Below are positions 17,636 to 53,771 of a DNA stretch of 64,000 nt, in pieces. The stretch's first letter is position 1. Every line of letters starts with the position of its first letter. This DNA comes from Pseudomonas fulva (GTDB lineage: Bacteria; Pseudomonadota; Gammaproteobacteria; Pseudomonadales; Pseudomonadaceae): NCBI RefSeq assembly GCF_023517795.1, contig NZ_CP082928.1, forward strand, positions 1,612,001-1,676,000. Reading direction: 5' to 3'. Below the pieces are notes generated by a model. It was not told the origin of the DNA. It worked only from the letters and a program-made list of their open reading frames with translations, and did not search any database. Made by a program: the position numbers and the translations under genes.

Positions 17636-20422
<2,787 letters not shown>

Positions 20423-51076: not shown

Positions 51077-51907
51077 TCAGCGCTTGTAGGCCTGCAGACC
51101 GGGCTTGATGGTCTTGTCGTCGAGGAACTGCTTCATGCCCTGCTCGCGACCGCCCTCTTCGTCGAGCAGGCGCGACTGGTCGAGCTTGGCGTACAGGTAA
51201 TCCTCGTTCTGCTCCCAGGTCAGCTCGCGGCAACGCTTGAAGCCATGCTTGGCGGCACGCAGCACCACCGGGTTCTTTTCCAGCAGGTTGCGCGCCAGTT
51301 CCAGGGTGGTTTCGCGCAGCTGCGCCAGGGGCACGCTTTCGTTGACCAGGCCCATCTCGGCGGCTTTCTTACCGTCGAAGGTCTTGCCGGTCATGATGTA
51401 GTACAGCGACTGGCGGTGGCCCACGGTGTCGGCCATGGCCTTGCTGACCAGGTTGCCCGGCGGGATGCCCCAGTTGATTTCGGAGAGGCCGAAGGTGGCT
51501 TCGTCGGCGCAGATCGCCAGGTCGCAGGCCACCAGCGGGCTGAAGCCGCCGCCGAAGCACCAGCCGTTGACCATGGCGATGGTCGGCTTGGCGTACATGC
51601 GCAGCAGTTTCCACTGCCATTGCGAGGCTTCACGGCGGATCTTCTCCTGGAGAATCTCCGGGCCGGCATCCACCTCGCGGAAGTATTCCTTGAGGTCCAT
51701 GCCCGCGGTCCACGACTCGCCAGCACCGGTCAGCACCAGTACGCGGGCCTCGGCGTCCTGCTCCAGCACCTCGAGGATCTCGACCATCTCGCGGTTGAGG
51801 GTCGGGCTCATGGCATTGCGTTTTTCCGGACGGTTGAGGGTGACCCAGGCGATGCCTTCTTCGACATCGACCTTGACGGTTTGCCAGCGGCCTTCGTACT
51901 TGCTCAT
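51077..51907 (-). CDS. ech: p-Hydroxycinnamoyl-CoA hydratase/lyase
   Basis: A 276-residue crotonase-fold enzyme that hydrates feruloyl- or coumaroyl-CoA and splits it to vanillin or 4-hydroxybenzaldehyde plus acetyl-CoA. Family motifs: VTLNRPEKRNAMSPTLNREM, LVLTGAGESWTAGMDLKEYF, MVNGWCFGGGFSPLVACDLA and FGLSEINWGIPPGNLVSKAM. It is the first gene of the ferulate operon; the upstream region has a promoter-like sequence and an AT-rich palindrome. Confidence 0.95.
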   Translation of the reverse strand: MSKYEGRWQTVKVDVEEGIAWVTLNRPEKRNAMSPTLNREMVEILEVLEQDAEARVLVLTGAGESWTAGMDLKEYFREVDAGPEILQEKIRREASQWQWKLLRMYAKPTIAMVNGWCFGGGFSPLVACDLAICADEATFGLSEINWGIPPGNLVSKAMADTVGHRQSLYYIMTGKTFDGKKAAEMGLVNESVPLAQLRETTLELARNLLEKNPVVLRAAKHGFKRCRELTWEQNEDYLYAKLDQSRLLDEEGGREQGMKQFLDDKTIKPGLQAYKR

Positions 51908-51982: not shown

Positions 51983-52077
51983 CAAAATCACCATTCGTGC
52001 CGAATTCGGACATTCCGCCGCCAGCGCCATCGTTCGCGGGCGCGAAGAACCTCGAACAGTTCACGCCGCCGCTTCGC

Positions 52078-52095
52078 TATAGCCAAAGGCTTACA
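52078..52095 (+). promoter_or_regulatory. GacA-box-like upstream activating sequence
   Basis: TATAGC-CAAAGG-CTTACA. The right half matches the GacA box TGTAAG-N6-CTTACA exactly and the left half at three of six positions. Its centre is about 65 bp upstream of the inferred start of the small RNA, the spacing expected for rsm promoters. Confidence 0.65.
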
Positions 52096-52139
52096 CGACG
52101 GTGCGCTGGTTCGCTCTGGTGATGACCCCGGCCGCGCCG

Positions 52140-52145
52140 TAATCT
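52140..52145 (+). promoter_or_regulatory. -10 element of the Rsm-type RNA
   Basis: TAATCT, about 7 bp before the inferred transcript start. No clear -35, as is common for GacA-activated rsm promoters. Confidence 0.55.
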
Positions 52146-52151
52146 AGCCCC

Positions 52152-52263
52152 ATTCCTGCAGCACAGGACGTGCTCAGGGTCATGGATGACGTGACCATAG
52201 CTAGGATGGCAGCCGACAGGACGTTGGCATTGGTCAGTAAAAGCCCGCTTCGGCGGGTTTTTT
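52152..52263 (+). ncRNA. RsmX/RsmY-family RsmA-sequestering small RNA
   Basis: About 112 nt with four GGA motifs. Three sit clearly in hairpin loops: AGCAC-AGGAC-GTGCT (52160-52174), GTCA-TGGA-TGAC (52179-52190) and GCCGAC-AGGAC-GTTGGC (52212-52228). One (AGGAT, 52203-52207) has a weak stem. A terminator ends the RNA. RsmX, RsmY and RsmZ RNAs bind RsmA/RsmE through such loops and relieve translational repression; they are induced by GacA, and a GacA-box-like site lies upstream. The 5' end is inferred from the -10. Which paralogue it is cannot be told from sequence; no protein-coding frame competes. Confidence 0.85.
52241..52263 (+). terminator. Intrinsic terminator of the Rsm-type RNA
   Basis: CCCGC-TTCG-GCGGG (52244-52257) with flanking A/T pairing and a six-T tail. 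Confidence 0.95.
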
Positions 52264-52365: not shown

Positions 52366-53580
52366 CTAACGGGATGTGGTCGAGACTGGCGGTGCGTCGA
52401 CGGCCCGGCGCCGGCTCATGCCGAGCACCACCAGCGCCGCGATCACCAGCCCTGGCGAAGCCGCCAGCAGCACGCCAGTGGCACCGGCCCCCGCAGCGAG
52501 AATCTGCCCGGCGGCCAGGGGCCCGGAGACCGAGCCCAGGCGCCCGACCGCCACCGCGGCCCCTACGCCGGTAGCACGAACCGAGGTGGGGTACGCTGGA
52601 GGCGCCAACGCGTAAAGCATCAGTTGCGCGGCCAACATGAACAGCCCTGCCGCGAAGCCAGCCGCCGCCATGGCCGCTAGACCGGACACCAGGCCCAAGG
52701 CGGCCAGTGCGCCGAGCAGACCGCCGTAACAGATCACCACCACGGCCGTTCGGTTGTAGCGATCCAGCAACACGCCGCCGAGCAGCGAACCAGCGGCCCC
52801 ACCGATGTTGAAGAGCATCTGCACGGTGCCTGCCTGCGGCTTGCTGAACCCCTGCTCCAACAGCAGTGAAGGCAGCCAGTTGAGCAGCATGTACATTACG
52901 GTCAGGGTAAAGAAGTAACTGACCCACAACGCCAGGGTGGTCACCGAACGGCCTTCGCCAAATAACGCGTGCCCGGTGGAAACCCGTGTCGGGGCCGCGG
53001 ATTGCTGCGCGCTGAAATCCCGCGACTCCGGCAGCATCACCATCAGCAAAGGTGCAATCAGCAATGGCGCCACGCCGCCGACGATGAACACCATTTGCCA
53101 GCTCTCACCACCGAGCATGCCCACTACCGCCGCGATGGCGCCGCCGAGCGGCACCCCGCAGTACATGATGCTGATGGCCGTGCCACGGCGCCGTTCCTCG
53201 ACCGCCTCGGCGCACAGGGCGATCAGGTTCGGCAAGGCGGCGCCAAGGCCCAGGCCGGTCATGAAGCGCGCCAGCAGCAGGCCGTTGACGCTGGCGACAA
53301 AGGCGGTCCACAACGAGAAGATGCCGAACAGAATCACCGCGCCGATCAGCACGCGCTTGCGGCCGATGCGGTCGGCCAGCCAGCCGCCGAAGAATGCCCC
53401 GGGCAGCAGGCCGATGATGCTGGCGCTGAACATCCAGCCCATCATTTTCTGATCCAGTTCGAACGCCTGGCGAATGCCCGCCGCGGCAATGCCCGCCGAT
53501 TGCAGATCCAGGCCTTCGATGAGCGCAACGATGAAACACAGCGTGACGGTCAGCGTCGAGCGACGCGATGACGTATCCAT
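52366..53580 (-). CDS. MFS aromatic-acid transporter (MhpT-like)
   Basis: A 404-residue, 12-helix major facilitator of the aromatic acid:H+ symporter type: FIVALIEGLDLQSAGIAAAG with the charged residue in helix 1, GGWLADRIGRKRVLIGAVIL in loop 2-3, and PAYPTSVRATGVGAAVAVGR. It resembles MhpT, so a hydroxycinnamate or phenylpropanoid substrate is likely given ech-vdh-fcs next door. ATG 53580; earlier starts give no homology. It is divergent from the OprD porin gene. Confidence 0.85.
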   Translation of the reverse strand: MDTSSRRSTLTVTLCFIVALIEGLDLQSAGIAAAGIRQAFELDQKMMGWMFSASIIGLLPGAFFGGWLADRIGRKRVLIGAVILFGIFSLWTAFVASVNGLLLARFMTGLGLGAALPNLIALCAEAVEERRRGTAISIMYCGVPLGGAIAAVVGMLGGESWQMVFIVGGVAPLLIAPLLMVMLPESRDFSAQQSAAPTRVSTGHALFGEGRSVTTLALWVSYFFTLTVMYMLLNWLPSLLLEQGFSKPQAGTVQMLFNIGGAAGSLLGGVLLDRYNRTAVVVICYGGLLGALAALGLVSGLAAMAAAGFAAGLFMLAAQLMLYALAPPAYPTSVRATGVGAAVAVGRLGSVSGPLAAGQILAAGAGATGVLLAASPGLVIAALVVLGMSRRRAVDAPPVSTTSR

Positions 53581-53771
53581 GGGGAGACCCTCGATTTTAT
53601 TGTTGTTGTGATCGCCCGCGACAAACCGCCCTGCGAGCCCTGAAAAGATTAACAAAGATAATGAATAACGAAACTAATTCAGCCCTGAATACCATTTTGA
53701 GGATAATTGAAACGTATCAATCACTTAGCTAAAGAATTTTATTAACACTTAAAATAATTAATATTTTTAAC

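Follow-up and report, generated by a model that had tools for sequence, protein, structure and literature searches.

Between ech and an aromatic-acid transporter gene in a 64,000-nucleotide stretch of Pseudomonas DNA (the window, below), the initial annotation had placed a small RNA of the RsmX/Y type, and had proposed that it joins the Gac/Rsm cascade to the ferulate catabolism genes of this region. In the portion of PMC2375449 at hand RsmX, RsmY, and RsmZ are described as RNAs that carry GGA motifs and sequester proteins of the RsmA type. The locus raises two questions, namely, whether the RNA is a genuine member of this family and whether its place beside the ferulate genes has a regulatory meaning. 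The comparisons presented here support a real rsmX gene, which adds a member to a known family. It is almost certainly one of this genome's three small RNA genes of the Gac/Rsm cascade and most likely acts by the known mechanism, ech and the transporter gene being probably accidental neighbours brought there by rearrangement. The elements of the locus are collected in Table 1.

Table 1. Elements of the rsmX unit and the genes on its two sides (positions in the window).
Feature	Position	Strand	Basis or remark
Putative GacA upstream activating sequence (GacA box)	52078–52095	+	TATAGCCAAAGGCTTACA; direct reading and comparison
-10-like hexamer TAATCT	52140–52145	+	Direct reading and alignment
rsmX small RNA gene	52151–52263	+	Rfam RF02144 match, 113 nt
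Intrinsic terminator, CCCGC-TTCG-GCGGG hairpin followed by T run	52244–52263	+	Direct reading and fold
ech	51077–51907	-	On one side of the rsmX unit
Aromatic-acid transporter gene	52366–53655	-	On the other side of the rsmX unit

Identity of the small RNA

The whole window was scanned with 4227 Rfam models at their curated cut-offs, and RF02144 (rsmX) was the sole match to pass, covering model positions 1–114 of 114 and scoring 78.9 bits where the cut-off is 56 (E = 7.5e-13 for the window as a whole). The comparison with Rfam covariance models, which the initial annotation had suggested as a check, therefore returned a full-length match and bore out the RsmX/Y-type RNA. RsmX is the better name, because the RsmY model gives only 40.3 bits at this place, under its cut-off of 57; the RsmZ model gave no match at the window RNA. 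The score of 78.9 bits is moderate, the maximum for rsmX in the genus sample being 125.7, and the rsmX model yielded zero matches in 14 control genomes. The rsmX covariance model is reportedly the subject of a paper by Moll et al. of 2010. In a permissive Rfam scan isrB, istR, and S15-leader matches also appeared, all under their own cut-offs and taken as chance, the weak isrB and istR matches overlapping the rsmX terminator.

The window RNA is similar to rsmX-1 and rsmX-2 of P. brassicacearum, as given in the available part of PMC7911923, in length (107–113 nt in its Table 1 versus about 112) and in the possession of GGA hairpin loops, a terminator, and an activating sequence. It differs from them in its chromosomal neighbours and in number: in the 5.44-Mb, single-contig genome the window locus is the sole rsmX match, whereas the same Table 1 gives tandem copies in P. 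brassicacearum, P. fluorescens F113, P. stutzeri, and three P. syringae strains. The Gac/Rsm small RNAs RsmY (RF00195) and RsmZ (RF00166) also bear GGA motifs, but they are separate genes in the same genome, each with one match over the cut-off (86.8 bits for rsmY and 108.1 bits for rsmZ); the RsmY model has four more matches in the genome under its cut-off, one of them being the window rsmX.

As to the protein components, the genome yielded a single CsrA-family gene (G000:C1:640718-640876, L211); Table 2 of PMC7366521, in the extract at hand, lists at least two in each of its nine Pseudomonas rows. A hybrid sensor kinase with 7TMR-DISMED2, 7TMR-DISM_7TM, HisKA, and HATPase_c domains and two receiver stretches is encoded at 17636–20422 on the plus strand, so that the earlier statement of RetS in the window was confirmed for the RetS-like architecture; the name itself is taken from this domain architecture, and no NCBIfam model was over its cut-off among the 25 matches listed for this protein. 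The gene lies about 32 kb from rsmX, which is proximity only.

Activating site and promoter

The activating site has the imperfect form TATAGC-N6-CTTACA, 16 of whose 18 bases are the same as in the GacA activating sequence of P. brassicacearum given in the seen part of PMC7911923. According to that text rsmX-2 was found by means of this sequence, and the expression of rsmX-1 and rsmX-2 is exclusively GacA-dependent. A palindromic site upstream of the RsmX, RsmY, and RsmZ genes is also mentioned in the accessible text of PMC2375449, and in the present genome the site upstream of rsmZ is a perfect palindrome, TGTAAG-N6-CTTACA (L013, 1312–1329).

The window site begins 73 bases upstream of the rsmX match, and a similar site with 11 to 14 of the 14 specified bases stands 72–75 bases upstream of the match in 29 of the 30 further rsmX loci compared, with L023 as the one that lacks it at this distance; the 30 loci are the best-scoring ones of the genus search, several of them closely alike, and form an uneven sample. 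When the 120 upstream bases were shuffled 20,000 times base by base, no shuffle reached 13 or more of the 14 bases and three reached 12, the window having 14, in a test that is partly circular, as the window site and the published one both went into the pattern. In an alignment of 11 sequences, from which G386 was excluded and in which P. straminea is probably present twice (L045 and G147), 15 of the 18 positions of the site are invariant, as is the TAATCT hexamer, which by a count by eye also occurs in 19 of the 30 other rsmX upstream regions. Both the GacA-box-like site and the -10 element of the initial annotation are upheld by these comparisons, and a transcription start may be inferred near 52152. 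Control of the window rsmX by GacA is presumed, and this is supported by the covariance match together with the site, its spacing, and its conservation.

Predicted fold and conserved pairing

The minimum-energy fold of 52152–52263 has a free energy of -47.6 kcal/mol compared with a shuffle mean of -33.39 (z -4.54), and none of 200 shuffles was as stable. The initial annotation described a 112-nt transcript with three GGA loops and a terminator; the terminator was confirmed, the Rfam match is one nucleotide longer, and the GGA motifs number four, each within a hairpin loop of the predicted single-sequence fold. An RNAalifold consensus was calculated for 23 rsmX sequences, a hand-chosen set of the window, 18 of the 30 best-scoring genus loci, and four close relatives. 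It contains 25 pairs, including GGA hairpins 1, 2, and 4 and the terminator, while the third GGA hairpin and the outer helix, both seen in the single-sequence fold, stay unpaired. At six of the 25 consensus pairs at least one of the 23 sequences has both sides changed with pairing kept. The terminator is nearly invariant in this set and is paired in the window fold.

By analogy with published rsmX genes, GacA would act at the upstream site and turn on transcription from about 52152. The resulting RNA of about 112 nt would, as in other members of the family, offer its GGA loops to the CsrA/RsmA protein, bind and titrate it, and so would lift the repression of target messages in trans.

Neighbouring genes

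The NCBIfam and Pfam assignments of the neighbours are consistent with the ferulate catabolism cluster of the initial annotation. Three neighbours exceed their NCBIfam cut-offs: an MhpT-like aromatic transporter with 564.2 bits where the cut-off is 410, a p-hydroxycinnamoyl-CoA hydratase/lyase with 508 bits where it is 276, and an acetyl-CoA C-acyltransferase with 333.7 bits where it is 240.55. For the acyl-CoA dehydrogenase, acyl-CoA synthetase, and aldehyde dehydrogenase the NCBIfam matches listed all stay below the cut-off, and the OprD porin and VanA-like oxygenase were assigned by Pfam. By eye, a GGA was seen no more than about 20 nt from the start codon in vdh, in fcs, and in the acyl-CoA dehydrogenase and porin genes, and by the same inspection ech has none in the 20 nt ahead of its start codon. 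GGA often belongs to the ribosome-binding site, and its presence near start codons is therefore neutral with respect to control by RsmA; control of these four genes in trans by Gac/Rsm may nevertheless exist.

P. straminea and P. daroniae are close relatives of the source organism, whose ech is 100% identical to that of P. straminea and of Pseudomonas sp. PA27 and 98% identical to that of P. daroniae and P. flavescens. Among 80 ech loci rsmX adjoins ech in at least three, those of PA27 (L044), P. straminea (L045), and P. daroniae (L046), which is a lower bound, as the sequence compared upstream of ech is shorter than 8 kb in some of the loci (15 bases in L099 and 730 in L094). The whole ech-rsmX stretch was found in 6 of 398 genus genomes, the window's own included, G147 and L045 being probably one genome. 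In P. flavescens (L047) the match spans the ech cluster and the sequence upstream of ech and stops at 51993 without reaching rsmX, and the locus itself gave no rsmX match. The P. viridiflava (L048) and P. putida (L055) loci likewise gave no rsmX match and have, upstream of ech, the stretch with the transporter and porin genes. In G425 ech and rsmX are kept together, while the greater part of the transporter and porin stretch known from the window is absent beside rsmX. In 19 rsmX regions from 17 genomes of other lineages the gene clusters that neighbour rsmX in the window were absent from the six nearest open reading frames on each side, as defined by crude longest-frame calling that included some antisense frames.

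A different arrangement is presented by genomes G164 and G384, whose rsmX genes (87% and 86% identity) have no ech beside them, ech being absent from the 18.5-kb regions around rsmX in both. The order there is type III secretion genes, rsmX, a GNAT acetyltransferase gene, and ypfJ (L204 and L205, respectively). The type III secretion genes beside rsmX encode FHIPEP and YscD-like proteins in L204 and homologues in L205. The window, too, has a homologue of this GNAT gene (56% identity) as well as ypfJ, both further to the right, past the transporter, porin, and vanA genes. Similarity between the window and these two loci sets in a few bases ahead of the activating site and ends just past the terminator, so that the rsmX unit is better conserved than its flanks between the two arrangements, and a similar activating site is kept in both genomes despite the missing ech neighbour. 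G384 has, besides the first, a second, diverged rsmX copy of 71.7 bits (G384:C14:97879-97995; L206, L265).

In the scan of 30 ypfJ loci for rsmX the 1.5-kb flanks barely reach the place where rsmX would be expected. A BLASTN search of ypfJ regions of 13.5 to 15 kb in 12 of the 13 genomes that ranked next in ypfJ score (G123 left out) found no rsmX there; three of these genomes (G060, G260, and G288) have rsmX elsewhere. In G224 about 7 kb separate ech from ypfJ.

Distribution of rsmX and published reports

An rsmX match at E ≤ 0.001 was obtained in 256 of 298 genus genomes and was over the cut-off in 178 of them, while two relatives, G224 and G180, gave no match at E 0.001. A DNA search had matches in 55 of 76 relatives, many spanning only the terminator part of the query, which makes it unusable as a count of rsmX. 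The seen part of PMC7366521 has the entry “RsmX?” for P. putida KT2440 and for P. entomophila and P. donghuensis, among others, gives RsmY and RsmZ but no RsmX; in the portion of the P. putida paper PMC6849547 at hand RsmX is named only for P. protegens. A literature search, with most subscription journals outside its scope, returned no paper with both rsmX and ferul- and none with both straminea and rsmX, and among papers combining Gac, Rsm, ferulic acid, vanillin, and Pseudomonas no title concerned the present subject.

Meaning of the position

The proposed link of the Gac/Rsm cascade with the ferulate region was argued from position and is not sustained: the adjacency occurs in few of the ech loci and genus genomes compared, and the neighbours vary by lineage. 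Such a link is unlikely. A local form of it can be formulated, in which GacA bound in the intergenic region shared by ech and rsmX, or rsmX transcription itself, affects ech, so that in this clade rsmX activation and ferulate gene expression would be interdependent and ferulate use coupled to the Gac state. The divergent orientation of the two genes, with 170 bp from the ech start codon to the activating site, and the retention of the arrangement in the six genomes and the named loci L044–L046 speak for this; if true, it would couple the cascade locally to plant-phenolic catabolism. We nevertheless regard it as quite improbable, since P. flavescens has the ech upstream sequence without rsmX, since G164 and G384 have a similar activating site without an adjoining ech, and since the stretch before the ech start codon is free of GGA and the literature search paired rsmX with ferulate in no paper. 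A trans-acting sponge RNA need not sit next to its targets, and ech and the aromatic transporter gene are therefore most likely chance neighbours placed there by rearrangement.

Still less probable is that the gene is a decayed copy, a relic whose work is done by RsmY and RsmZ. The moderate covariance score is compatible with decay, and the lack of a match in G224 and G180 indicates that rsmX can be lacking in relatives; yet the activating site, -10 element, GGA motifs, stems, and terminator are all kept, and the unit is better conserved than its flanks across the two arrangements. That the feature is an RsmY homologue has a probability close to nil: the RsmY model does match at this place, but it does so below its cut-off and far under the rsmX score, and the genome has a separate RsmY. 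The preferred reading remains that of an rsmX gene of known mechanism whose position by the ferulate genes looks like genome reshuffling, because neighbours differ between the ech, type III secretion, and other-lineage settings while the unit itself stays whole.

In summary, a well-supported rsmX is added to the P. straminea and P. daroniae group. Its unit, intact from the activating site to the terminator amid changing neighbours, calls for caution in inferring the function of a sponge RNA from the genes adjacent to it.
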